DNA of 11,018 bases from Desulfovibrio sp. (GTDB lineage: Bacteria; Desulfobacterota; Desulfovibrionia; Desulfovibrionales; Desulfovibrionaceae). Shown here piece after piece: positions 1 to 11,018 of this stretch (position 1 is its first letter; the number at the start of each line of letters is the position of its first letter). The stretch lies in the NCBI GenBank assembly GCA_028708195.1, contig JAQVZK010000041.1, forward strand, positions 1 through 11,018, in the 5' to 3' direction. Below the pieces are notes generated by a model that worked only from the letters and a program-made list of their open reading frames with translations, searched no databases and had not been told where the DNA came from. Both the position numbers and the translations under genes were made by a program.

Positions 1-1
1 C

Positions 2-280
2 CACGCCAGACGAAGCCAGCTTTTGCGCGGCCAGAGCGGCGGTACGCGGGTCGCCCGCGTCGTCTTCCACCACAATCTCGATTTTGCGGCCATTGATGCC
101 GCCCTTGGCATTCACCTCGTCAGCCAGCAGACTGACAATATTTTTCATGTCCTGCCCTTCAGAAGCCCATTTGCCAGTCAGCGGACACATGAGACCAATC
201 TTGATGTCTTCGGCAAGAACCGCCGCAGGCACCAGCAGGGTGAGGGCCAAGGCCCCGAGCAAACGACCAAGTGCTTTCAT
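2..280 (-). CDS. Branched-chain amino acid type ABC transporter substrate-binding protein, N-terminal part (cut by window edge)
   Basis: This gene would encode the periplasmic receptor of an ABC importer in the LivK/LivJ family; such proteins capture branched-chain amino acids or related small ligands and deliver them to an inner-membrane permease. Only the first 93 codons are inside the window. Residues 1-23 form a classic signal peptide: MKALGR, a hydrophobic core, then a VLA site before EDIKIG. No lipobox cysteine is present, so a soluble periplasmic protein is expected. The mature start (IKIGLMCPLTGKWASEG), then LLADEVNAKGGINGRKIEIVVEDDAGDP, is the usual opening of the type I periplasmic binding fold of this family. 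The start is supported by GGGGGA five bases upstream. The gene lies beyond the glycogen cluster terminator and appears to be a separate transcription unit. The true ligand cannot be read from this fragment. Confidence 0.9.
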   Translation of the reverse strand, partial: MKALGRLLGALALTLLVPAAVLAEDIKIGLMCPLTGKWASEGQDMKNIVSLLADEVNAKGGINGRKIEIVVEDDAGDPRTAALAAQKLASSGV

Positions 281-305
281 AAAATCCCCCGTCCGTTGTG
301 CGATG

Positions 306-333
306 ATGATAATAACAAAATAGCATACCTCAA
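306..333 (-). promoter_or_regulatory. Candidate sigma-70 type promoter of the substrate-binding protein gene
   Basis: Reading the minus strand, TTGAGG (333-328) and TATCAT (311-306) are separated by 16 bases in a locally AT-rich stretch. Transcription would begin near 299 and give a leader of about 20 bases containing the ribosome binding site. The boxes match consensus only partly, and TATTTT preceded by TG in the same stretch is an alternative -10. It was judged by eye only. Confidence 0.35.
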
Positions 334-427
334 AATGCCAGAAAGAAAAAGCCCCAGATTTTCCGCCCGTAATCCGCAGAGATACAGACCTTCCGCCACA
401 CACTAAAACTTATTTCCCTTCTTTAGT

Positions 428-495
428 TCTGCCGCCTGCGCCGCGCGCGGCAAGACGGCAGACGCGCCCTGCGCGGGGGACTCCACGCGCAGGGC
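428..495. repeat. Two adjacent GC-rich inverted repeats (hairpins) between the terminator and the substrate-binding protein gene
   Basis: A perfect 10-base inverted repeat, GCCCTGCGCG at 466-475 and CGCGCAGGGC at 486-495, encloses 10 bases. Beside it, TCTGCCG (428-434) pairs with CGGCAGA (456-462) around a very GC-rich centre containing CCGCGCGCGG. Neither stem is followed directly by a T-run on either strand, so they are not ordinary intrinsic terminators. They could be a structured leader, if a second promoter lies further upstream, or protein-binding sites. Function is unknown. Confidence 0.55.
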
Positions 496-538
496 ACAAC
501 ACATCCACGCAAGCGACTCTTCTCTTTTTCTGATGCTT

Positions 539-574
539 AAAAGAAAGCGGGCCACCCTTGGGTAGCCCGCTTTC
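539..574 (-). terminator. Strong intrinsic terminator of the glycogen cluster
   Basis: On the minus strand GAAAGCGGGCTACCC (574-560) pairs with GGGTGGCCCGCTTTC (557-543) across a tiny loop and is followed at once by TTTT (542-539). The single non-Watson-Crick position is a U-G wobble in the minus-strand RNA but a C-A mismatch in the plus-strand RNA, so the stem is better formed in the direction that follows the synthase/phosphorylase gene. It starts 38 bases after that gene's stop codon. Confidence 0.9.
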
Positions 575-612
575 ATTATGCGCTTAAGCGCAACAAGCCA
601 TGCGCGGCATCC

Positions 613-3600
613 CTACGCCCACAACACAAGCCCTGTTTCCAGCGGCGAAGCCAGATACTTGTGAAATGGCAATACACGCACACCATAGCGGTATTGCCCG
701 CTTTGCGTCGGTATGTAGGTTGCGGCATAAGCCATGCCGCCGTTGCCGTTATCAGTAACGCGCGATTCAAGACGCAGTATTTCCGGCTTGTCAATGAAGT
801 TGCCGTCAATAAGGGCACTGCCTATGACAAGCTGCACAAGAATCTCTTCAGGCTTCATTTCACCTATATCCAGGTGCAAGCGTACACTCACGGGTTCACC
901 GCATATCATCGTGTTGTTATCCACACCGCTGATGAGCATTCCTTCTATCTTGACGGTGCCGAATCTGGCTGGCAGCTCTTTTTCCCAGGCGGCGAGCTGG
1001 CGGCAGGCGCTCCAGTTATCATCGGCCAGCATGTTGCGGCGCCGGGCCGCCCGCAGATAGTACTGACGGATGTAGTCGTTAAGCATGCGGTTGCTGCTGT
1101 ACATGGCGGTCAGGCTCTTGAGCGAACGTTTGCCCATAGCAATCCACTGAGAGGGCAAGCCGCTCTGATCACGCTCATAGTACAGGGGCAGGACGGCATT
1201 TTCCAGCAGACTGTACAGGGATTCCGCATCAACATAGTCGTTCTGTTCGCTGCTGGGCAGTTCGTTGGTGATAACGGGGCCGATGGTCCAGCCGTTCTGC
1301 CTGTTGTAGCCCTCGCACCACCAGCCGTCGGAGATGCTCAGGTTGACGCCGCCGTTGACAGGCAGCTTCATGCCGCTGGTGCCAGAGGCCTCGTGCGGGC
1401 GACGGGGTGTGTTAAGCCACACATCGCAGCCCTGTGACATAAGCCGCGACACGGACAGGCTGTAATTTTCGAGAAAGAAAATACGCCCCACGAAGCGGTC
1501 GTCCTGGCACATGCGCATGACTTCCTGGATGAGGTTGATGCCAGCCTCATCCGCAGGGTGTGCCTTGCCAGAAAAGACCAGCACCACGGGCCTTGCGGGA
1601 TTGTTGAGGATGCGCGCCAGCCTGTCGGGATCAGCAAAAAGCAGCGTGGCGCGCTTGTACGGCGCGAAGCGGCGGGCGAAACCAATAATGAGGGTTTCGG
1701 GCTTGAGCAGTGTCTCCATGTTTTTACGGGTGGCCGGGTCCAGCTTGAACCGCTGGGCGAAGACGGGAATCCGCTTGCGCAGTGCGTCAAGCAGCGCTTC
1801 TTTCTGGTTTTGACGGGCAGCCCAAAAGACATCGTCGGGTATTTGGTCCACCTGATCCCATACGCCAGCGCCGGGCAGAGCCTGCAGCCAACCCTCGCCG
1901 AGATATTTGTTCAGTACCTCGTGCACCCAGCTGCCCACGTATGAGGGGGTGTGTATCCCGTTGGTAACGTGCCCGATGGGCGTTTCTGCCGTGGGCAGTC
2001 CCTTCCACAGTTTGTTCCACATATGGCGCGAAACAACACCGTGCAGCCGGCTGACGGCGTTGGCCCAGCAGGAGAGCCGCAAGGCCAGCACTGTCATTTC
2101 AAAGGCCTGACTGTCGCCGCCTTCTATCTGCCCCAGCTTTGTAAACTGTTGCCATGAAAGATTCAGGTTTTGTGCCATGCCGCTGAAGTAGCGGTTCATG
2201 AGTTCGAGAGAGAAGGATTCATTGCCTGCAGACACGGGGGTGTGGGTGGTAAAGAGCGTATTGGAGCGTACGCGCACCACGGCTTCTTCATAGTCCATAC
2301 CTTGGGTCATGCAGTCGCGTACCCTTTCAAGGGCCATGAAGGCCGAATGCCCTTCGTTCATGTGGTACACGCTGGGGATGATGCCCAGGGTACGCAAAAG
2401 GCGCATGCCGCCCTGACCCAGCAGAATTTCCTGCAACAGCCGGGTTTCGCGGTTGGCCTCATAGAGGCGGTCGGTGATGCGGCGGTCTTCGTCGGTATTG
2501 CGGCTGGTGTCCGTATCCAGAAGGTAGAGGGTCACCCGGCCTACCTGCAATCGCCACACGCGGGCAAAGAGGATGCGGCCGGGCAGTTCCAGCTGCACAT
2601 AGACGGGTTCGCCCATACTGTCATAGACCCGTTTTATGGGCATCTGGCCAAAATTGTTGACGGGGTACTGCGCGATCTGGCGGCCGTTGGAATCAATCTC
2701 TTGCATGAAGTAGCCGCTTTTGTAGAGCAACCCGATGCCAACCAGGGGCAGGGACAGGTCTGAAGCGGATTTGAGGTGGTCGCCCGAAAGCACGCCCAGC
2801 CCGCCGGAATAGATGGGTATGGATTCATTAAGCCCGTATTCTGTAGAAAAGTAGACAATGGGATGTTCGGGCGTCACGTCCAGGCTGAGGGAGCGGATGG
2901 GCTCGGCCATGTAGGCGTCAAATTTTTCCATAACCATCCGGTATATTGCCATATACTCTTCATTGGCTATAAGCTCCTTGAAGCGTGCAGGCCATGCTTC
3001 TTCAAGCATTTTCAATGGATTGCGGCAGGCCTCCCAAAGCTGGGGGTTCAGGGCCATAAAGAGGCCCTTGGCATGGTCGTGCCAGCTCCACCAGACGTTC
3101 TGGGCCAGCTCGCGCAGGCGCAGAAGCTCACGGGGCACTTCGGCGACAGCCATGATGGAACGCAGAAAAGGGGTGGCCGAGCAGGAGGCCGTGAGCACAC
3201 GCGTAAGCGCGCCGTGCCCCGCATCGTGGTCGGCGCGGGTGTCGGACTTGGCAAGGGCGATGTGAAACGCTTTTACGTAGTTATCAAAGAAATATGCCCA
3301 AGAACTTCTTTCGGCCAGGTTACGGGCGTGCACCCGCCAGGAGAGCAGCTCCTCTGGGGAGCTGGAGTTTGCCATGAGTATTCTTTCGTGCAGCACATGA
3401 ACGCTCTGCTCAAAGTTCGTGCCCCGTCTGGGCATGACGTATATGCCCCTGTGGTCCACGCCCTCTTCTTTCATCTGTGCTCTGACCCACATGCCGAAGC
3501 CTGAAAGGTCGGTGGTGAGCGTGGGCACGGCCCAGGCCGCGCTTTCTTGCGGTGTGTAGCCCCAAGGCTCGTACCAGGAGGGGAAAAAGCCCACATCACA

Positions 3601-4869
3601 AGCGGCCAGAACTTCCTCGTAGGGCATGTTCAAAAAGCCGTCATGGCCGTCGAGCATGGCGGGTACAAAGATTACCTTGACGTGCCTTTCGTTCTTGTTA
3701 TTGAGCCCCAGGCGGCGGCAGGAGTTGATGATGGGGTCCTGGGGGGCGTTCCATGCGTAGTGTGTGCAAATAAAGGGCTGGCCGTTGTCTGTGTCGGCCG
3801 GGTCGCCGGATACGGCGGCCGGGTTGACGCCCGTATGCCCGCCCATGACGAGGCAGAGAACCAGAATGGAGCTGTCGGTGCCTGTCAGGTTGCGGTCAGC
3901 CTGGGCCAGAGCATCGAGAAAAACGTCCACACCCTTATTGTGCATTTCATAGCGGCCCGAAATGACAAAAATTCGGGTATTTTCCGCCAGGGGGGCGCGC
4001 AAAAAGCGGGTCGCGGCGTCCATTATCTTGGCACGGGTGGCCAGGGGGGTGCTGCGGTCCTGAGAATAGTTGGGTATGACGCGCAAATCCAGGCCGTTGG
4101 TGGTGATGACATCAGGCTGGCGGCCCAGAAAAACCGTGGACTCCTCACCGGTGATGGGGCTCACGGTGGTGAAAGCATCGGCCTCACGGGCGGCGGTGCT
4201 TTCCATAGACCATTTGGCCGTGATGTTCAGGGCGGCGGCCTCGTTGGCCGGGTTGATGTTGCGCATGTTGGTGTAAATATCGCGCCCTGTGGCGGCCAGG
4301 GCGCGCCCCAGCATGGTGGCGTGGGTGGTGAACACCGTGCCAACCCCTGGCGCGAGTTTTTTTACTGTAAGCAGCCCCGCCGCGCACATCCATTCATGAA
4401 ACAGGGCTACGCTGCGTCCCTGCATGGGCTCCACCCGGCTTTCGTGCACGGCTGCGATGACCTCACCGCAGGCCGCAGCGAACATGACGGGCTCTATATA
4501 GTCCCATCCGCCGGAAAGTGAATCCACGCCGTAGTTTTTCCACATTTCGAAGAGCAACTGGTTGCTGGAATAGCGCTTCTCAAATTCAACCAGAATGACC
4601 TTGGGGCGGCCGGGGATATTCCAACGGCCCAGGCGGCACTTGAGGTCCCGCGTGGCAAGACCAATGCGCAGAGAATCCCAGGCGTGCTCATCGGTTTCTT
4701 CAAAGCCGGGATTCTCTTTCAGAGCGGGGCCCAGAAGAAAATAGTCCTCGCCAAAATGCTCCACTGCCTGGAGAGCCTTGCTGGTGACAACGGAATGTAT
4801 GCCGCCTACCTTGTTGCAAACTTCCCAACTCACTTCAAACAGGGTTACCAGGGACGAGTTGAACTCCAT
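613..4869 (-). CDS. Glycogen synthase (GT3) – alpha-glucan phosphorylase (GT35) fusion protein, 1418 residues
   Basis: One uninterrupted frame joins two enzymes of opposite direction. Residues 1 to about 540 are a GT3 (eukaryote-type) glycogen synthase: the sugar-nucleotide loop motif EVSWEVCNKVGGI (12-24) and the hallmark SWYEPWGYTPQE, with the E-x7-E pair at 434 and 442. Residues about 541-578 look like a linker. From about 580 comes a phosphorylase of the DUF3417-containing bacterial/archaeal type: LRELAQNVWWSWHDHA (585-600), STEYGLNESIPIYSGGLGVLSGDHLKSA, GFARRFAPYKRA (1063-1074), and the pyridoxal-phosphate site EASGTSGMK with Lys1168. The C-terminal beta-rich end (about 1305-1418, finishing ETGLVLWA) is also typical of that family. 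The synthase part would extend alpha-1,4-glucan from a sugar nucleotide; the phosphorylase would release glucose-1-phosphate. Standalone family members are about 550 and 830-850 residues, so both halves look full length. The eukaryotic glucose-6-phosphate-sensing arginine cluster is not seen. The start is fixed by AAGGAG five bases upstream. It is the last gene before the terminator. The sugar donor (ADP- or UDP-glucose) is unknown. Confidence 0.95.
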   Translation of the reverse strand: MEFNSSLVTLFEVSWEVCNKVGGIHSVVTSKALQAVEHFGEDYFLLGPALKENPGFEETDEHAWDSLRIGLATRDLKCRLGRWNIPGRPKVILVEFEKRYSSNQLLFEMWKNYGVDSLSGGWDYIEPVMFAAACGEVIAAVHESRVEPMQGRSVALFHEWMCAAGLLTVKKLAPGVGTVFTTHATMLGRALAATGRDIYTNMRNINPANEAAALNITAKWSMESTAAREADAFTTVSPITGEESTVFLGRQPDVITTNGLDLRVIPNYSQDRSTPLATRAKIMDAATRFLRAPLAENTRIFVISGRYEMHNKGVDVFLDALAQADRNLTGTDSSILVLCLVMGGHTGVNPAAVSGDPADTDNGQPFICTHYAWNAPQDPIINSCRRLGLNNKNERHVKVIFVPAMLDGHDGFLNMPYEEVLAACDVGFFPSWYEPWGYTPQESAAWAVPTLTTDLSGFGMWVRAQMKEEGVDHRGIYVMPRRGTNFEQSVHVLHERILMANSSSPEELLSWRVHARNLAERSSWAYFFDNYVKAFHIALAKSDTRADHDAGHGALTRVLTASCSATPFLRSIMAVAEVPRELLRLRELAQNVWWSWHDHAKGLFMALNPQLWEACRNPLKMLEEAWPARFKELIANEEYMAIYRMVMEKFDAYMAEPIRSLSLDVTPEHPIVYFSTEYGLNESIPIYSGGLGVLSGDHLKSASDLSLPLVGIGLLYKSGYFMQEIDSNGRQIAQYPVNNFGQMPIKRVYDSMGEPVYVQLELPGRILFARVWRLQVGRVTLYLLDTDTSRNTDEDRRITDRLYEANRETRLLQEILLGQGGMRLLRTLGIIPSVYHMNEGHSAFMALERVRDCMTQGMDYEEAVVRVRSNTLFTTHTPVSAGNESFSLELMNRYFSGMAQNLNLSWQQFTKLGQIEGGDSQAFEMTVLALRLSCWANAVSRLHGVVSRHMWNKLWKGLPTAETPIGHVTNGIHTPSYVGSWVHEVLNKYLGEGWLQALPGAGVWDQVDQIPDDVFWAARQNQKEALLDALRKRIPVFAQRFKLDPATRKNMETLLKPETLIIGFARRFAPYKRATLLFADPDRLARILNNPARPVVLVFSGKAHPADEAGINLIQEVMRMCQDDRFVGRIFFLENYSLSVSRLMSQGCDVWLNTPRRPHEASGTSGMKLPVNGGVNLSISDGWWCEGYNRQNGWTIGPVITNELPSSEQNDYVDAESLYSLLENAVLPLYYERDQSGLPSQWIAMGKRSLKSLTAMYSSNRMLNDYIRQYYLRAARRRNMLADDNWSACRQLAAWEKELPARFGTVKIEGMLISGVDNNTMICGEPVSVRLHLDIGEMKPEEILVQLVIGSALIDGNFIDKPEILRLESRVTDNGNGGMAYAATYIPTQSGQYRYGVRVLPFHKYLASPLETGLVLWA

Positions 4870-4907
4870 GTTATCTCCTTGCTCAGGATATCATTGGCAC
4901 AGATTGA

Positions 4908-5016
4908 CTTTGAGAATATGCATGCTCAAAGGGTAAGACACGCTTGGTGTGGCGCTTGAAAGCGCAAACAAATGTATGCTCACGTATCGCCAGAGCATTT
5001 CAGGATAAAAATGCTC
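4908..5016 (-). promoter_or_regulatory. Structured intergenic region upstream of the fusion gene: direct repeats and inverted repeats
   Basis: The 177 bases between the GH57 stop and the fusion start (4870-5046) hold no gene. ATGCATGCTCA (4918-4928) and ATGTATGCTCA (4972-4982) are a direct repeat, 10 of 11 bases identical, 54 bases apart. A shorter ATGCTC lies at 5011-5016. Three inverted repeats are present: CTTTGAG/CTCAAAG (4908-4914, 4925-4931), GCGCTT/AAGCGC (4952-4957, 4960-4965) and GAGCATTT/AAATGCTC (4993-5000, 5009-5016). None has a T-run, so none is a clear terminator. The arrangement suggests regulator binding or an mRNA processing or attenuation region giving the fusion gene separate control. 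No convincing promoter boxes were seen. Confidence 0.45.
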
Positions 5017-5046
5017 CAAGGGCCGAAACCGCAATGATTGGCCCAG

Positions 5047-6513
5047 TCATACGGGAGTACCGGTCTTGCGGCGCGGGGCCGCAGTTTTTTTTTCTGCTGC
5101 CGAATCCCCGGTTTTTGCGCCGGGCTTTGTGCCAGCCTTTGCACTGATCTTTGCTCCGGGTTTTGTGCCGGGTTTTGCACTGGGCTTTGTGCCGGGTTTT
5201 GCGTCTTTTTTGGCGCTGCTCCTACTTTTGCCCGACGTTTTTTCCGGGGCCCCGGCCAAAGGCTTGCGGCTCCGCCCGGCGCGGCTTTTAGCAGGAGCCG
5301 TGGCATCCGGGTCAGGCACTGGTTGCAGCTCTTCAGTGGTCTTGAGGCGCATTTCAAAGTCGGCCAGCACGTTCATGAAGGTGATATAGGCGTCATAGGG
5401 ACTGCCAAAGGGGCTTGGCCTGTCCGGTGCTTCGCTGGAGAACCATTTTGTGGACATGTGGCGAAAGTGGTCAGCGGTCTGCAGACGGTCAAAATCGTGT
5501 TGCAGATCAGGCGCGCCGCAGAGTGCGACCCGTGAAGACAGGGCATAAAGCGCGTGTATGGCGTCTTTTTGCATGTCATTGCCAAGCCACCCGGTGAGGT
5601 CGCCGCTTTCATCCTCCCACGACACAAACTGGGGCACGTCCATTGTGCCCACGGTCTTGAAGCTCTTGATTGCCGCAGCTGGCGTGGTGAAGTGAACCCC
5701 CTTGCGGGCCAGCAGGGCTTCGGGCAGGGCTTCCATAAAATCAAAAATGCCCGATTCTTTGCTGTGGCGCAGGCCAAATACGTGGTAATCGTTGATTATA
5801 TTTATAATGTCGGCAGATTCTGCCAACCCGTGGCACCATGAGGCAAAGGTCTCAGACTTGAGGGGCCAGGCGGGCCAGGTATTGTCAGAAAAGCGCAGGC
5901 CCACATCGCCCGAAAGGTTGGTGTTACGCAGCAACAAAGCCAGACCGGGAGCGCTGACGGGCTGATAAAGATAATTGGCGCTACGCCAGCCCAGCACATG
6001 GTCTGTACCCTCGGCCAGAACAGCCTTGAAACCGAGTTCGGCAACAGCGGCGGCCAGATCGTTATTGTAGACGCATTCGGTATTTTTGAAGGTTACCGGC
6101 GTGTAGCCAAAGAGGGTTTTAAGGCGTGTTGCCTGCGCCTGCACCTGGCGGTCGAATTCCTGACGGGAATAGAGGAAGGCCAGTGAGTGCGGTGCGGTTT
6201 GCGCCACAAATTCCACGCAGCCGGTGCGGGCCAGAGCCACAAAACTCTCCAGCACTTCGGGCACATACTGCTCAAACAGATCAAGGGCCGTGCCCGAAAT
6301 GGCGTAAGACAGGCGAAAGGCCCCGTCGTAACGGCGGATGAGTTTGAGCATAAGCTCATTGGCTGGCAGGTAACAAAGGCGGGCGGCGCGCAACATGGCG
6401 TCGCAGTTATGGTCATCGTCTTCGTATATCGAGTTCTGTCCCATATCAAAAACGGTATAGCGGCGCAGTTGATAGGGCTCGTGAACTTCATAGCACAAGC
6501 AGATGGCAGACAT
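5047..6513 (-). CDS. Glycoside hydrolase family 57 protein (alpha-amylase / glucanotransferase-like) with a repetitive basic C-terminal tail
   Basis: GH57 enzymes are retaining enzymes acting on alpha-1,4/1,6-glucans; members include amylases, 4-alpha-glucanotransferases and branching enzymes. Visible conserved regions are HEP at 11-13, the nucleophile region TFKNTECVYNND with probable catalytic Glu146, and INDYHVFGLRH with probable general acid Asp242. Residues 1 to about 400 match the length of the compact GH57 subgroup. Residues about 401-488 are a low-complexity tail rich in Lys, Ala, Pro, Gly, Ser and Thr, with 8-residue repeats of the form AKPGTKPx and almost no hydrophobic residues, so probably disordered. 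No signal peptide is seen, so it is likely cytoplasmic and acts on stored glucan. The chosen ATG overlaps the stop of the upstream GT4 gene (TAATG) and is preceded by GGAGG at six bases, which implies translational coupling. A start 20 codons further upstream is open but lies inside the GT4 frame and adds nothing conserved. Exact activity (hydrolase, transferase or branching) cannot be decided by eye. Confidence 0.92.
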   Translation of the reverse strand: MSAICLCYEVHEPYQLRRYTVFDMGQNSIYEDDDHNCDAMLRAARLCYLPANELMLKLIRRYDGAFRLSYAISGTALDLFEQYVPEVLESFVALARTGCVEFVAQTAPHSLAFLYSRQEFDRQVQAQATRLKTLFGYTPVTFKNTECVYNNDLAAAVAELGFKAVLAEGTDHVLGWRSANYLYQPVSAPGLALLLRNTNLSGDVGLRFSDNTWPAWPLKSETFASWCHGLAESADIINIINDYHVFGLRHSKESGIFDFMEALPEALLARKGVHFTTPAAAIKSFKTVGTMDVPQFVSWEDESGDLTGWLGNDMQKDAIHALYALSSRVALCGAPDLQHDFDRLQTADHFRHMSTKWFSSEAPDRPSPFGSPYDAYITFMNVLADFEMRLKTTEELQPVPDPDATAPAKSRAGRSRKPLAGAPEKTSGKSRSSAKKDAKPGTKPSAKPGTKPGAKISAKAGTKPGAKTGDSAAEKKTAAPRRKTGTPV

Positions 6514-7868
6514 TAGCGACCTCCGTGTACGTTGTGGTAAATGACCAGCAACTGGTCGGCGGCATTTTCCCAACGGATGGATTTCATTTCTTCACGGCAG
6601 TTTTTCACCAGTTCAGCCGCAAGGCAGGGATAGCGCAGGACAGCGCAAATTTTGTCGGCCATTTCGCGGGTATCCCAAAAGTCGGCTTTGAGGGCGTGCT
6701 CCAGCACCTCTGACACGCCCGACTGGCGCGAAAGCAGCACAGGCACGTCGTAGAGCATGGCTTCTAACGGGGTTATACCAAAGGGTTCGGACACTGAAGG
6801 CATGACATACAGATCGCTCAGGGCAAACATGCGGTCCACCTCTTCGCCTTGTAAAAATCCGGCAAAGTGAAAACGGCTGCCCATGCGCAACTGCCCCGCC
6901 CTGCGGATGAGGCGCGGCAGCATATCGCCGCTGCCCGCCATGAAAAAACGTACATTGGGCATTTTTTGCAGTACAAGGCGCGCGGCTTCCATAAAATATT
7001 CCGGCCCTTTCTGAAAGGTAACGCGGCCCAGAAAGAGCACACGTTTTTCATGCCGGATGCGCGGGGGGATGGTGTAGTGGCGCTGGGCCTCGTGCCGGGC
7101 CACGGCATTGTACACAACGTGAACTTTTTCAGGGGGGATGCCGTAGCGTTCGATAACAGTCTTGCGGGTGAGGCGGCTCACGGCCACCACCGCGTCGGCG
7201 GCCAGCATGCCCGCACGCTCGATACCCGCCACCTGCTTGTTTATGCCGGCCCCGCTTCGGTCGTATTCTGTGGCGTGGATGTGGACCACAAGCGGTTTGC
7301 CCGTAATATTTTTGGCCAGCATGCCTGCGGGATAGGTCATCCAGTCGTGCGCGTGGATGACGTCAAAACTTTCCTCTGCGGCCAGGGCAGCGGCCAAATG
7401 GCTGTAGCGCAGCACCTCGGTCATGAGGTCGGGGCCATAACCACCCTGAAGAAAATGGGTGAAGGATTGCCGCTGATGGAATTTGTGGCTACCAGCCGGG
7501 TATTGGGTAGAGGAGCACGACTGCTCCACGCACGGCAGGGCACCGGAAGTGCCTGTGACGCTGGCGTAGTCCTGCGGTGTCAGGTAGGGCATGAGGGGGC
7601 TGTCAACGGGCAGGTAGCGTATTTCTTCCTGCCAGACTTCCCGCGCTGCCCAGTCTATGCGCCGCTCCATATCTTCAGTAATGGGAGTACCGGATGCAGG
7701 TCGCAGCCGCAGGAATCCGTCCCGCCCTTTGTTGTCGTCAATGCGGGGCAGTATAAAGATTATTTCCGCTCCTCTGCGGGCCAGGGCCTGGGTCATGCCG
7801 AAGCAGGCCGTGCCCAGGCCGCCGCTGATGTGAGGTGGGAACTCCCAGCCGAACATAAGCACTCGCAT
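6513..7868 (-). CDS. GT4-type glycosyltransferase, probable glycogen/alpha-glucan synthase-like protein
   Basis: This 451-residue protein has the two-domain GT-B layout of family GT4. The N-terminal MRVLMFGWEFPPHISGGLGT includes the glycine loop SGGLG (15-19) found in bacterial starch/glycogen synthases and relatives. FDVIHAHDWMTYPAG (169-182) follows, then VVHIHATEYDRSG. The C-terminal domain carries the donor-binding motifs VLFLGRVTFQKGPEYF (277-292), MAGSGDM (310-316) and the E-x7-E motif SEPFGITPLE with Glu361 and Glu369. No signal peptide or membrane segment is seen, so it should act in the cytoplasm. Family knowledge suggests transfer of glucose from a sugar nucleotide; the setting between a debranching enzyme and a GH57 protein supports an alpha-glucan acceptor, but a maltosyl-phosphate or other acceptor cannot be excluded. 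GAGGGAG five bases before the ATG supports the start. Its stop overlaps the GH57 start, so the two are co-translated. The cluster also contains a GT3 synthase, so two different polymerases may act in one pathway. Confidence 0.9.
   Translation of the reverse strand: MRVLMFGWEFPPHISGGLGTACFGMTQALARRGAEIIFILPRIDDNKGRDGFLRLRPASGTPITEDMERRIDWAAREVWQEEIRYLPVDSPLMPYLTPQDYASVTGTSGALPCVEQSCSSTQYPAGSHKFHQRQSFTHFLQGGYGPDLMTEVLRYSHLAAALAAEESFDVIHAHDWMTYPAGMLAKNITGKPLVVHIHATEYDRSGAGINKQVAGIERAGMLAADAVVAVSRLTRKTVIERYGIPPEKVHVVYNAVARHEAQRHYTIPPRIRHEKRVLFLGRVTFQKGPEYFMEAARLVLQKMPNVRFFMAGSGDMLPRLIRRAGQLRMGSRFHFAGFLQGEEVDRMFALSDLYVMPSVSEPFGITPLEAMLYDVPVLLSRQSGVSEVLEHALKADFWDTREMADKICAVLRYPCLAAELVKNCREEMKSIRWENAADQLLVIYHNVHGGR
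6520..6524 (-). promoter_or_regulatory. Ribosome binding site deciding the GH57 start
   Basis: GGAGG lies six bases before the ATG at 6513-6511, inside the last codons of the upstream GT4 gene. With the TAATG stop/start overlap it selects this ATG over the one at 6573. Confidence 0.75.
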
Positions 7869-7885
7869 GTATTCTCCCTCGTACA

Positions 7886-7900
7886 GCGAAATTATTTCGC
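7886..7900. repeat. 15-base palindrome just upstream of the GT4 ribosome binding site
   Basis: GCGAAAT and ATTTCGC flank one central base, a perfect dyad whose edge is 18 bases from the GT4 start codon. It could be an operator or an RNA stem affecting translation; no regulator can be assigned. Confidence 0.45.
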
Positions 7901-7970
7901 CGGATTCAGCAACTTTTTTGTCAGCCGCCGCAAATATTTTCCTCCGCTCCTGTTTAGACTTTTACACTTC

Positions 7971-8055
7971 GAGATGCCTGCTTGGCGGCGAAGCATCTCT
8001 GCTGTCTTCGTCCGTAACTTCCTTCGTCGTAACGGTCGAAGCATCTCTGCTGTCT
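7971..8055. repeat. Intergenic direct/inverted repeat element
   Basis: A 19-base sequence, CGAAGCATCTCTGCTGTCT, occurs perfectly at 7989-8007 and 8037-8055, a period of 48. An inverted partner, GAGATGC at 7971-7977, can pair with GCATCTC at 7993-7999 or 8041-8047, giving alternative stems. Between the two copies CGTAAC also recurs. This mixture of short perfect direct copies and inverted arms resembles REP-like dispersed intergenic elements; I infer but cannot show that copies exist elsewhere in the genome. Confidence 0.7.
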
Positions 8056-8152
8056 GTTTCCCCAAGCCGCAATGCGGCAGAAGAAATACCCGGCAGCGCG
8101 GGCACGCTTTGCACAGCGTGATGGCACGAATTCTTATAAAAATCCGTGCAGC

Positions 8153-8181
8153 GCAGATAAACATTTTCAATGTTAATCTGC
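8153..8181 (-). repeat. Long AT-rich hairpin abutting the debranching enzyme stop codon
   Basis: On the minus strand GCAGATTAACATT (8181-8169) pairs with AATGTTTATCTGC (8165-8153) around a three-base loop with one T-T mismatch. It begins one base after the stop codon at 8185-8183. A run of five T lies at 8142-8138, about ten bases after the stem, too far for a standard intrinsic terminator. It may be a weak or partial terminator, or a 3' end stabiliser that lowers expression of downstream genes. Confidence 0.6.
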
Positions 8182-8182
8182 T

Positions 8183-10339
8183 CTAACAGGCTGCCCCCGG
8201 CTCCGGCGTGGCGACCGGCGCACATTGGTGATGTTTTTTGCAGCCTTCCAGAACCATGCTCACGCGGCAAACCCCTGCCGTATCTCCGATGACAGGGTGA
8301 GCCATGCGGTGAGCTGCCAGTTTTTGCCAGCGCCGGTAGACGGCGGGTGCGGCTTTTTGCATCCGCAGCAAAAGGCGCAGGCATTCGGCTACACTCCAGG
8401 CCTGGGCAATGCAGCCATTGGGTTTGTAAGGGGGTGAACCGTCAAAAATTTCAGAAATGCTGCCCAGACCCGCCTGCGAGATATGGTCGCAGTAAAGCGG
8501 CGTGAGGGTATCCAGAAGAGCCAGCGCAGCCCCGTCAATATCCCAGGCTGTGCGCAGCAAAGCATCGGCATAATGCCCCAACAGCCAGGGCCAGACTGTG
8601 CCCTGATGATAGGCCGCGTCACGGGTGGCGGGGTCGCCGTCATAACGCCCCTTGTAAAGGGGAGAGTCCGGCGCAAGGGTGCGCAGCCCGTAGGGCGTCA
8701 GCAGCTTGTTGCGCACGCATTCCACCACCTGCGCCTGATACTCTTCAGCCAGGATGGCGTGAGGCAGAGAAACCGCAAATATCTGGTTGGGCCGCACACT
8801 GGCGTCAAGCTTGCCAGCACGCCACACGTCACCCAAATACCCTCCCCCGCCGTGAATCCAGAAACGCTGAAAAAACACCGCGCGCAATCTGTGCAGGGCC
8901 GTGTCGCCCGTAAGGGGGGCTTCGCCAAACCATGCGGCCAGTTGATCGGCAAATGCCAGGGTATTGTACCAGAGGGCGTTGATTTCAACGGGGTAGCCCT
9001 GCCGGGGCGTTACCGGGCCATTGCCTGCCTGCGCGTCCATCCAGGTGAGCTGGCTGTGGGCGTTGCCCGCGTGCAGCAGGCCATCGGCGTCCACATGAAT
9101 ATCCAGCTGGCGCGCCTTGCCCTCGCCCGCGCGGTAGCCCGCAATGACAGCCTTTAACGCGGGCCAGGCGTTTTCACGCACCCAGGCGATCTGACCGGCG
9201 TCAACCTCAAGGCAGCTTTGCAGGGCAAAGGCGTACCACAGGGCGGCGTCAACAGAATTGTAGGCATGATCGCCCTGAGGGGAAAACATGTTGGGGATAA
9301 GCCCGTCTTGCACATGCCTGCCCATATCTGCCAGGACGCGCAGACCAAAGTCTGTACGGCCCGCGTGAAAAGTCAGGCCCGGCAGGCTGATAAGCGTGTC
9401 GCGGCCCCAGGCGTCAAACCAGTGGTAGCCAGCCAGAACTTCGGGCCTTCCTGACGGGCCTTCGATGCAGAACTGCTGCCCGGCCTGGCTCAGGTATTCA
9501 GCCAGACCGCCCCCGGCCTTGTGGGTTCTTGTGCGTTCCTGACTGGCGTCGTTCCACAGCTGGCGCAGGTTCTGCGTGCAGGGGCTGGTGCCGACCACAA
9601 GGTAGACGCAGCACTCGTCCGCTCCCTCGGCAGGGGGCGGTATGGACACATCCAGTGTGCCCGGTATGAAAAGGTCTTCGCTGTAGGGAAAGCCCCGCTC
9701 ACGTTCTTCAAGGTATTCCACATTGCGGCACCAGTCCGGCTGCGGCGTGAACACATGCCCCTGGCTTGTCTGGCACTGGACGTAGAGGGTGGGCAGCCCT
9801 TCATAGGGGCTGATGCTGAACCCGTCGGGCAGTGGGCTTGTGTCTGTACACAGATCGGGATTGGCGTGGGTGAGTTTGTGAAAACTGCGGTAGGCCAAAA
9901 GCGGCCGCAGGCGCAGGGTCAGTGGCGGCACAGGGTTTGGCCCGCGCACGCTCCAGCGTAGCACGATCTGGCTCTCACCCTGAACAAGAAGGGCCTCGCG
10001 GCACAGGCGCACATCGCCAACCCGGTACACGCACTGGGGCCACTGGTCCAGCCGAAAGGCCTCCAGATAGTCGTGACCGTGAGGATAGAGTGTGCCCGGA
10101 TGTTGCCGCGTTGAAAGATAAAATTCCTTGCCGCCGCCCACAACGGATTCTTCAAATCCAGAGAGCAGCACGTGGCGGCCATATGGCGTATTGACTGTGA
10201 GCAGGCCGTGGTATTTGCGCGTATTGCAGTAAAGGATGGTGCTGCTGGCATAGTCGCCCAGACCGTTGGTGAGCAACCATTCCTTACGTAACGCCCTGCG
10301 TGTGTTCTGGCAGGCGGCCTTGTCAAAGCTGAACCGCAT
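8183..10339 (-). CDS. Glycogen debranching enzyme, archaeal/bacterial amylo-alpha-1,6-glucosidase type (GH133-like), 718 residues
   Basis: This family hydrolyses alpha-1,6 branch stubs of glycogen left after phosphorylase action, releasing glucose. The N-terminal domain (about 1-280) opens with KEWLLTNGLGDYASSTILYCNTRKYHGLL (19-47), the diagnostic start of the GDE N-terminal family. The (alpha/alpha)6-barrel catalytic domain (about 290-665) shows LAGYHWFDAWGRDTLISLPGL (302-322), IPNMF, DAALWYAFALQ, VEINALWYN (451-459), the RPNQIFAVSLP stretch, YHQGTVWPWLLGHYADAL (577-594) and SEIFDGSPPYKPNGCIAQAWSVAECLR (629-655). Acidic residues in the WFDAWGRD and SEIFDG stretches are the likely catalytic candidates. 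The last 40 or so residues are not conserved to my eye. No signal peptide is present, so it is cytoplasmic. The start has AGGAGG four bases upstream. It is the first gene of the cluster and works naturally with the phosphorylase half of the fusion protein downstream. Confidence 0.93.
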   Translation of the reverse strand: MRFSFDKAACQNTRRALRKEWLLTNGLGDYASSTILYCNTRKYHGLLTVNTPYGRHVLLSGFEESVVGGGKEFYLSTRQHPGTLYPHGHDYLEAFRLDQWPQCVYRVGDVRLCREALLVQGESQIVLRWSVRGPNPVPPLTLRLRPLLAYRSFHKLTHANPDLCTDTSPLPDGFSISPYEGLPTLYVQCQTSQGHVFTPQPDWCRNVEYLEERERGFPYSEDLFIPGTLDVSIPPPAEGADECCVYLVVGTSPCTQNLRQLWNDASQERTRTHKAGGGLAEYLSQAGQQFCIEGPSGRPEVLAGYHWFDAWGRDTLISLPGLTFHAGRTDFGLRVLADMGRHVQDGLIPNMFSPQGDHAYNSVDAALWYAFALQSCLEVDAGQIAWVRENAWPALKAVIAGYRAGEGKARQLDIHVDADGLLHAGNAHSQLTWMDAQAGNGPVTPRQGYPVEINALWYNTLAFADQLAAWFGEAPLTGDTALHRLRAVFFQRFWIHGGGGYLGDVWRAGKLDASVRPNQIFAVSLPHAILAEEYQAQVVECVRNKLLTPYGLRTLAPDSPLYKGRYDGDPATRDAAYHQGTVWPWLLGHYADALLRTAWDIDGAALALLDTLTPLYCDHISQAGLGSISEIFDGSPPYKPNGCIAQAWSVAECLRLLLRMQKAAPAVYRRWQKLAAHRMAHPVIGDTAGVCRVSMVLEGCKKHHQCAPVATPEPGAAC

Positions 10340-10399
10340 ACGGCCTCCTGGCGGTATGGGTGCTTGTGGGATGCGCTGCGTGAAGCGAGGAGGATCAAG

Positions 10400-10621
10400 A
10401 TGAAGTCGCAGCGGGCCTGTGTGAGACTACTGAAGGTGTGGAACCAGGACGCGAAACCGCGCGGGACGATTGAAAGCAGTGCGCAGCGCCCACTCTTTGA
10501 CATGGACGAAGCCATGCAGGAATGCCAATGGGGAGCATGCCGCCACCATGTGGCTGAAACGCGCGCCGCAGACAGGGGGCAGGCGGTCCTTCCCCATGTC
10601 TGTCTTACTGTTAGCCTATAG
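10400..10621 (+). CDS. Possible small ORF of 73 codons, unknown function (doubtful)
   Basis: This is the only plus-strand frame in the gaps with a good ribosome binding site: GAGGAGG lies five bases before the ATG. The product (MKSQRACVRLLKVWNQDAKP…, ending VCLTVSL) is basic at its N-terminus and has three cysteines and two adjacent histidines (QECQWGACRHHV), but I recognise no family. It would be transcribed divergently from the debranching enzyme. Short open frames are frequent by chance in GC-rich DNA, and no promoter or terminator supports it, so it may well be spurious. Confidence 0.18.
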   Translation: MKSQRACVRLLKVWNQDAKPRGTIESSAQRPLFDMDEAMQECQWGACRHHVAETRAADRGQAVLPHVCLTVSL

Positions 10622-10709
10622 GATAATTTTATGCATGTCGAGTTTTACGGATTTGCGCCAGAATGACGACAAAACGATACCGTCAGGGCGCTGCAGCGGA
10701 TGTTATGCT

Positions 10710-10753
10710 TCTCAGGCTGTTTTCCGGCCCCGGTCTCAGGCTGTTTTCCGGCC
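10710..10753. repeat. Short tandem repeat, 24-base period, about 1.8 copies
   Basis: The 20-base unit TCTCAGGCTGTTTTCCGGCC occurs perfectly at 10710-10729 and 10734-10753, separated by CCGG. It is intergenic. No stem or known site explains it. Confidence 0.85.
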
Positions 10754-10810
10754 ATAAAATGGTGCAGATGAAGACGCGGGCGCATGCTGAAAGCTGCTGC
10801 CAGAACAATA

Positions 10811-10857
10811 CAGCCAGAATTGTTTGGGCTACCTTGTCTGGCTAACCTGTCTGGCTG
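10811..10857 (-). terminator. Possible weak terminator of thiM with alternative stems
   Basis: After the thiM stop the minus strand offers two AGCCAGA copies (within 10857-10850 and 10843-10837), either of which can pair with TCTGGCT(G) at 10818-10811. The nearer pairing gives a 7-base stem with an 18-base loop, followed by TATTGTT. The loop is long and the tail impure, so this is only a candidate. The two copies sit in an imperfect direct repeat, ACCTTGTCTGGCT / ACCTGTCTGGCT (10831-10843, 10845-10856 on the plus strand). Confidence 0.3.
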
Positions 10858-10859
10858 AA

Positions 10860-11018
10860 TCAGACGTATTTTACGTCCGCGCGACAGGCCAGCGCCGGCC
10901 CGTCCAGCATGCTCATGGCGTCCAGCAGCAGGGCGCGGTAACTGCCCGTACCGCCGCCAACACCGGCCATATTTTCAGCGGCCACTTCGCCTGCCACCCC
11001 CATGATGCTTACGGCGCA
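10860..11018 (-). CDS. thiM: Hydroxyethylthiazole kinase, C-terminal fragment (cut by window edge)
   Basis: The enzyme phosphorylates 4-methyl-5-(2-hydroxyethyl)thiazole with ATP, a salvage step toward thiamine diphosphate. Only the last 52 codons and the TGA (10862-10860) are in the window. The fragment reads AVSIMGVAGEVAAENMAGVGGGTGSYRALLLDAMSML, matching the C-terminal helices of ThiM, where G-(I/V)-AGE-x-AAE is followed by a glycine-rich turn with G-(S/T)-(F/Y) and LLDAL/M. The upstream catalytic region lies outside. The last residues (DGPALACRADVKYV) are variable in the family. It runs in the same direction as the glycogen cluster but is 520 bases away, so it is probably a separate unit. 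A thiazole-kinase-like member of the ribokinase fold is the only alternative I would consider. Confidence 0.82.
   Translation of the reverse strand, partial: CAVSIMGVAGEVAAENMAGVGGGTGSYRALLLDAMSMLDGPALACRADVKYV

Follow-up and report, generated by a model that had tools for sequence, protein, structure and literature searches.

Why should a bacterium carry, on a single polypeptide, one enzyme that makes glycogen and another that breaks it down? The question is raised by a gene of Desulfovibrio sp. on contig JAQVZK010000041.1 (assembly GCA_028708195.1), of which positions 1 to 11,018, the whole stretch of DNA analysed here, are called the window. The gene occupies 613..4869 on the minus strand, as do all the other window features described below, and runs as one open frame from an ATG at 4869 to a stop codon at 613-615, giving 1418 residues with no internal stop; a plus-strand translation of 613-4869 was rejected, as it contains stops throughout. 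Its product joins a GT3 glycogen synthase to a GT35 glycogen phosphorylase. We lean towards regarding it as a true bifunctional glycogen enzyme, which would profit from co-localisation and 1:1 dosage of its two activities and whose net direction would be set by substrate supply. From the comparisons below we infer the activity of both halves, the donor and the way in which direction is controlled.

Two complete enzymes on one chain

The N-terminal half, residues 12-542 (3244..4836), matches the Pfam family Glycogen_syn (PF05693) with 323.8 bits against a cut-off of 27. Among solved proteins it matches human and yeast glycogen synthase, with human GYS1 as the top relative (280 bits). After a linker at residues 548-571 (3157..3228), which is predicted to be flexible, comes DUF3417, the N-terminal portion of this type of phosphorylase (residues 578-684, 2818..3138; PF11897, 98.2 bits). 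The GT35 core at residues 671-1272 (1054..2859) scores 809 bits with TIGR02094, above the cut-off of 191.7, and the Pfam Phosphorylase family gives 86.8 bits in this half, whose solved relatives are PDB 9l6i and 20yr, named "alpha-glucan family phosphorylase". The remaining C-terminal portion, residues 1273-1418 (616..1053), is covered up to residue 1406 by both NF041129 and PDB 9l6i. The window chain misses the equivalog cut-off of NF041129, the Thermococcales maltodextrin phosphorylase (823 vs 1500 bits), and no single one of the 60 solved sequences that matched spans both halves. The sequence-only reading, made earlier from the letters alone, had claimed a complete GT3 and a complete DUF3417-type phosphorylase on one chain, and this was borne out by the Pfam and NCBIfam domain search.

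Could such a layout arise by accident? In 118 of 120 relatives among the matches listed, with the window's own copy counted, the length is 1415-1441 residues; 7999 relatives were scored, and 4521 at E <= 0.001 bear GT3. Since relatives with identity as low as 39% (residues 1-1200) retain the identical chain layout, it is not due to chance. A join made by chance or by assembly was likewise rejected, because the join is free of stops in 76 of the 77 loci from named genomes that reach GT35 and in 13 of 13 carriers of the phylum sample described below.

Conservation of the catalytic residues

Are both halves still equipped to work? Catalytic positions were compared in an alignment of 196 full-length fusions, composed of the window, 12 loci of the phylum sample, 66 named loci and 117 database proteins; it omits 14 cut or interrupted named loci, two short proteins and the window's own database copy, and it is skewed to Desulfovibrio, the effective number being about 100 at 80% identity. 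The E-x7-E pair of GT3, E434 and E442 (3544..3570), which aligns with E509/E517 of yeast Gsy2 and E510/E518 of the human enzyme, is identical in 196 of 196, as are H158, H183, N258, R306, K312, W436, G437 and Y438. The same holds in GT35 for N838, E839, H841, H876, N970, H973, R1067, K1072, E1160, G1163, T1164 and K1168. R1067 and K1072 belong to the phosphate-site motif (1654..1671) and are presumably the equivalents of rabbit phosphorylase R569 and K574, while K1168, in the motif E1160-ASGTSGM-K1168 (1366..1392), is assigned by motif and taken by us to be the pyridoxal lysine. Exceptions among the positions examined are Y1136 and R189 (one row each), K20 (eight rows) and R1142 (31 rows). K20 opens the K20-V-G-G23 loop of the GT3 half (4801..4812), which we take to be a donor-side loop; the position is K in 188 fusions, M in four, Q in two and R in two.

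The ratio of nonsynonymous to synonymous substitution rates (dN/dS) between the window and its relative L062 is 0.07 for GT3 and 0.08 for GT35, and both halves of the window protein are thus under purifying selection. With these ratios and invariant catalytic residues, one of the options that had been raised earlier, namely that one half is inactive through loss of catalytic residues, is unsupported for the window protein, while the presence of both catalytic sets (E434/E442 and K1168), claimed at the same time, is confirmed. Across the eight pairs measured, GT3 has the higher ratio in seven (0.06-0.31 vs 0.04-0.21 in those seven), the window pair being the exception.

What has become of the eukaryotic control features?

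Human GYS1 and yeast Gsy2 have in common with the window the GT3 family itself, the E-x7-E pair, a K/R-V-G-G loop and the R and K of GRYExxNKG; they differ from it in that the window has a phosphorylase attached, a reduced glucose-6-phosphate (G6P) cluster, and no counterpart of an insert of about 50 residues. The insert falls between human residues 370 and 439, and we take it to be the coiled-coil, tetramer-forming hairpin of eukaryotic GT3. At the corresponding site, window residues 343-366 (3772..3843), all 41 rows examined from fused or split proteins have 14-29 residues, as against 75-77 in 10 of 10 eukaryote-type rows, which represent seven different sequences. This loss had gone unmentioned in the earlier reading, which had pointed to the lack of the C-terminal G6P arginine cluster. 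The latter applies to yeast R589 and R592, replaced in the window by H514 and N517, whereas R587 is kept as R512, the sole conserved member (R in 176 of 196 fusions), so that the cluster is reduced and not wholly absent. For yeast H280, H286 and K290, presumably G6P contacts, the window has S, P and R instead. With the insert gone and the G6P residues largely lost, the point on lost eukaryotic allostery essentially holds; that control of the synthase comes from the phosphorylase half instead is a guess, and a futile cycle or a sensing of length or phosphate, both raised in the sequence-only reading, would be speculative.

How widespread is the fusion?

Fusions had been expected in Desulfovibrio-type genomes, and they are found there; the expectation was too narrow, for they also occur in Bacteroidota, in Planctomycetota, in a Lentisphaerae metagenome-assembled genome (MAG) and in other lineages. 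Samples of 297 genomes from the window's phylum, Desulfobacterota, 247 from Bacteroidota and 294 from Planctomycetota were searched. GT3s with and without the insert are called here eukaryote-type and short-type; the insert was measured directly in seven of the eight Bacteroidota eukaryote-type copies, and elsewhere the class is taken from a gapless profile match.

In Desulfobacterota, GT3 exceeds the cut-off in 13 of 297 genomes, eight of them belonging to the window's genus, always in frames of 1418-1481 residues, and GT35 shares the open frame with GT3 in the window and in the other 12 carriers. The DUF3417 phosphorylase is far commoner (153 of the 297 genomes, 140 of which have no GT3 over the cut-off). 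Among Bacteroidota, GT3 was detected in 10 of 247 genomes: seven have the eukaryote-type (eight copies, in frames of 609-669 residues) and three the short type, one fused and two split. Planctomycetota have GT3 in 48 of 294 genomes, of which 14 are eukaryote-type (frames of 607-774), 33 short-type and one marginal. For 28 of those 33 the frame measures 1402-1889 residues, the length by which they were judged, and two of them (G299 and G300) were also shown to carry TIGR02094 in frame. Among the five in frames below 1402 residues, three (L168, L169, L172) run open into GT35, L170 has two in-frame stops ahead of GT35 in the same frame, and the contig of L171 ends first. Both stops of L170 (1-2175, genome G622) are TAG and may reflect error, decay or recoding. 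A second frame of genome G271, of 1277 residues, was considered as another fusion and rejected, having no GT3 match inside; it is interpreted as a stand-alone phosphorylase whose frame extends further upstream.

GT3s without the insert are thus nearly always fused, while none of the insert-bearing copies, eight in Bacteroidota and 14 in Planctomycetota, lies in a frame of fusion length, all being 774 residues or less. This contrast is a sharp one. In named genomes, the search found at least 585 relatives, of which the best 80 were analysed, and 77 of these 80 loci reach GT35, 76 in one open frame and one (L117) with an in-frame stop. The best 80 include Desulfobacterota, Bacteroidota, Planctomycetota, the Lentisphaerae MAG and a Raymondbacteria MAG, and are not an unbiased sample of GT3, since the search patterns were derived from fused GT3s. 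In L117 (8954-13246) the stop lies inside the phosphorylase half, on a low-coverage MAG contig, and reflects either sequencing error or decay.

Origin of the fusion and the split gene pair

Two Bacteroidota genomes have GT3 and GT35 as separate neighbouring genes in the order of the fusion (L124 8441-12782 and L125 5981-10239), with 40 and 32 bp between the frames; both proteins are of the short type. Are these pairs ancestors of the fusion or its derivatives? In the phosphorylase tree, 61 fused and two split rows are parted from 31 stand-alone rows across one branch (support 97), and the split pair sits inside the fused Bacteroidota. A smaller second phosphorylase tree (support 95) and the GT3 tree agree, and an approximately unbiased (AU) test rejects a clade made up of all fused rows without the split pair (p = 1.5e-5), for a group that was chosen with the question in mind. 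These are quick trees, whose stand-alone rows comprise the 30 top DUF3417 hits from a single phylum and one further row. Judged from such sequence comparisons, the fusion is widespread and old, and because the split form is nested within the fused radiation it looks secondary, a later fission of the fusion. Since the halves exist as adjacent genes, covalent linkage is not needed everywhere. The split phosphorylase of L124 matches PDB 9l6i end to end (1460 bits). Both split pairs adjoin what appears, by eye, to be a V-type ATPase cluster.

The pathway around the fusion

Which other glycogen enzymes do the carriers have? GlgC at E <= 1e-80 is present in none of the 13 fusion genomes of the Desulfobacterota sample as against 191 of 284 others (Fisher 9e-7), and, counted by genus, in none of six as against 125 of 192 (p 0.002), in statistics that treat related genomes as if independent. 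In family f33, the single fusion genome has no GlgC and the eight others have it. No GlgC over the cut-off was detected in the window's own genome, which is 78% complete, and among 22 fusion genomes Chitinophaga rupis is the only one with GlgC above the NCBI cut-off. In Desulfobacterota, then, the fusion occurs where GlgC is missing. GalU exceeds its cut-off in seven of the eight genomes of the window's genus. GH13 branching-enzyme matches were seen in 11 of 20, every one below the cut-off. At E <= 0.001, TIGR02094 matches nothing but the fusion in all eight genomes of the window's genus, and in the window's own genome PF00343 too matches the fusion alone; being the only phosphorylase seen in the genus, it must serve as phosphorylase there. 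The fusion may be the sugar-storage route of bacteria that have no textbook glycogen route.

How might the two halves work together?

In a bifunctional enzyme, the N-terminal GT3 half would transfer glucose from a sugar nucleotide, probably UDP-glucose, onto glucan ends, and the C-terminal DUF3417/GT35 half would use phosphate to remove glucose as glucose-1-phosphate. The two would be rigid GT-B enzymes joined by some 24 flexible residues, a linker that would allow both, made 1:1, to act on one granule. Net direction would follow the supply of sugar nucleotide versus that of phosphate with no obligatory switch within the chain, against which the natural split pair also speaks. In the carriers, the GlgC-based route would be replaced by the fusion together with its operon partners, the genes for debranching enzyme, GH57 and GT4.

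The sequence-only reading had suggested a structure prediction for the linker at residues 541-578. A model of residues 1-1200, built from 51 aligned fusions (50 loci and the window), has a mean predicted local distance difference test (pLDDT) score of 88.9, with both halves mostly at 85-97, a low-confidence segment below 50 at residues 548-571, and a predicted template modelling (pTM) score of 0.58. In our reading, the model shows two rigid enzymes connected by a short, flexible tether of about 24 residues, with no prediction of how they are placed relative to each other.

Several points weigh against this picture. A low pTM is no proof of flexibility, and close association may be important, given that the split genes have stayed side by side. 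The main synthase could be the GT4 neighbour, which is similar to alpha-maltose-1-phosphate synthase and to GlgA. Chitinophaga rupis, a carrier outside the phylum, has GlgC; GlgC is also missing in 93 of the 284 non-carriers, and eight of the 13 carriers are one genus. A search for GalU at E <= 1e-40 came up empty in the 78%-complete genome from which the window comes, in the five other Desulfobacterota carriers and in four of seven named carriers, and for those carriers a supply of UDP-glucose is therefore not secured.

The main rival to the bifunctional enzyme is an intramolecular reciprocal switch, possible in our opinion though doubtful, by which the phosphorylase half would replace the lost tetramer hairpin and G6P cluster so that only one half at a time is active. 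It fits the fact that fused GT3s have neither the insert nor most G6P residues while eukaryote-type matches stay in short frames. The narrow spacing of 64-74 residues between W524 and N591 in the 196 fusions and the apparent co-evolution of the halves, whose distances show a correlation of 0.92 across 67 fusions (0.14 at most after shuffling), also suit it. However, such a correlation is expected from any inheritance as one chain, the model gives no confident inter-domain arrangement, and the split pair lives without a covalent bond. Nor does covariation between the halves stand out from the background: inter-half pairs make up 43.6% (218) of the 500 top pairs as against 45.5% of all pairs, in a low-power test in which within-half pairs were hardly enriched either.

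A related and more tentative idea is a third regulatory design, in which the attached phosphorylase would act as regulator and oligomer scaffold of the synthase, the chain toggling on one granule, and in one Syntrophales-type MAG clade the synthase would be a non-catalytic sensor on an active phosphorylase. On that idea, eukaryotic GT3 has a G6P/tetramer switch and classical bacteria have control at GlgC, whereas the fusion would rely on the attached phosphorylase.

It is unlikely that only one half is active, the other being a glucan-binding or regulatory pseudo-enzyme. Some encouragement for it comes from a clade of three loci (L033, L045 and L046; support 100), which deviates at 11-12 of 104 near-invariant GT3 positions, including the K-V-G-G loop, and at only 0-1 of 126 near-invariant GT35 positions; the next most deviant row has seven GT3 and five GT35 changes. 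Its dN/dS is 0.21-0.31 in GT3 vs 0.14-0.21 in GT35, an excess that is not special, since GT3 is higher in seven of eight pairs anyway. The clade retains E-x7-E too, and the window, with the catalytic residues of both halves invariant, has no such pattern. In this clade (L033 lies at 8118-12365) K-V-G-G has become Q/R-V-G-D/E, and T182L, A184S and, in one member, R189Q are seen. Going by these replacements, its GT3 half may have changed function, a possible natural pseudo-synthase.

Slightly less likely still is that the finished chain is cleaved within the linker, or that translation of the second half also begins internally, so that the enzymes work apart. The linker is the least conserved of the eight regions measured and is predicted to be disordered, and a two-gene form exists. 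In-frame ATG, GTG or TTG codons within residues 530-605 lie at 558, 573, 578 and 605; by eye, the ATG at 605 is preceded seven bases upstream by AAGGG, while no clear ribosome site stands before the other three. Yet a start at 605 would drop the first 27 residues of DUF3417, and the fused form is retained across several phyla. That the chain always amounts to two independent enzymes, an outcome that the sequence-only reading had considered, is not what the sequence data indicate, although the two-gene version exists.

Least probable of all, to a degree that we hardly expect it, both halves would serve mainly synthesis and chain-length trimming, with the phosphorylase extending primers from glucose-1-phosphate and GT3 elongating them, and not storage and mobilisation; we know of no glycogenin in bacteria, but the debranching enzyme in the operon and the standing of the fusion as sole phosphorylase in the window's genus point to mobilisation, and the GT4 neighbour could prime. 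A review states that GT3 of heterotrophic eukaryotes requires a primer (PMC11046441), which would favour this idea.

Relation to known systems

The fusion architecture is already catalogued: KEGG K16153 appears as "glycogen phosphorylase/synthase" (EC 2.4.1.1, 2.4.1.11) in a table within PMC8307300, and the IMG name of several close relatives begins "phosphorylase/glycogen(starch) s...", with NCBI giving "alpha-glucan family phosphorylase" only, among the matches listed. Going by its label in that table, K16153 assigns both activities to one protein; the window chain has the domain sets of both. The sequence-only reading knew of no fusion studied biochemically, and open-licence PMC literature, the scope of the search, to which subscription papers do not belong, likewise holds no such study that was found. 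In the portions consulted of the following articles, a 2024 Chemical Reviews article counts GT3 from bacteria and archaea as a GlgA, does not mention the fusion and contains neither the word DUF3417 nor Desulfovibrio (PMC11046441); K16153 is counted among synthesis genes (PMC11093988); a DUF3417 phosphorylase is tabulated (PMC6355812); and a 2023 review says that all Bacteroidetes are without GlgC and only suggests their glycogen route (PMC10395257). The fusion and its split form are a concrete candidate for that route, common to Desulfobacterota and Planctomycetota.

PDB 9l6i and 20yr consist of DUF3417 and GT35 over their whole length, as does the window half, except that 9l6i is a separate chain of 852 residues, much closer to the split phosphorylase of L124 than to the half of the window, with which it scores 615 bits. 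In the TreS-Mak/Pep2 fusion of the GlgE pathway, as described in PMC11046441, two glycogen-pathway enzymes likewise share one chain; there, consecutive steps of one route are joined, and in the window opposing steps. Opposing enzymes on one chain, with natural split versions and natural GT3 variants, offer a test bed.

Neighbouring genes

Upstream of the fusion lie a GH57 glycoside hydrolase gene (5047..6573; PF03065, 192 bits), a GT4 glycosyltransferase gene (6513..7868) and a glycogen debranching enzyme gene (8183..10339; GDE_N and GDE_C, 225 and 340 bits), the latter two being conserved neighbours. In 38 of the 51 loci whose upstream sequence extends to 6 kb or more, debranching enzyme, GT4, GH57 and fusion follow one another on the same strand, an arrangement that the window shares, and 10 of the 51 have none of the three neighbours; GH57 precedes the fusion in 53 of the 70 loci having at least 1.5 kb upstream. 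The nearest solved structures of GT4 are alpha-maltose-1-phosphate synthase and then GlgA glycogen synthase, and for GH57 no solved match came up at E <= 0.001. With the listed TTG start of GH57, its frame shares 61 bases (6513-6573) with that of GT4, and the true start of GH57 is probably later. The tail of the GH57 frame, outside the Pfam domain, is rich in Lys, Ala, Pro, Gly and Thr and is encoded by 12-base repeats (5114-5203). Downstream of the fusion, a partial gene (2-403) encodes a signal peptide, and its product resembles, by eye, the binding protein of a branched-chain amino acid ABC transporter.

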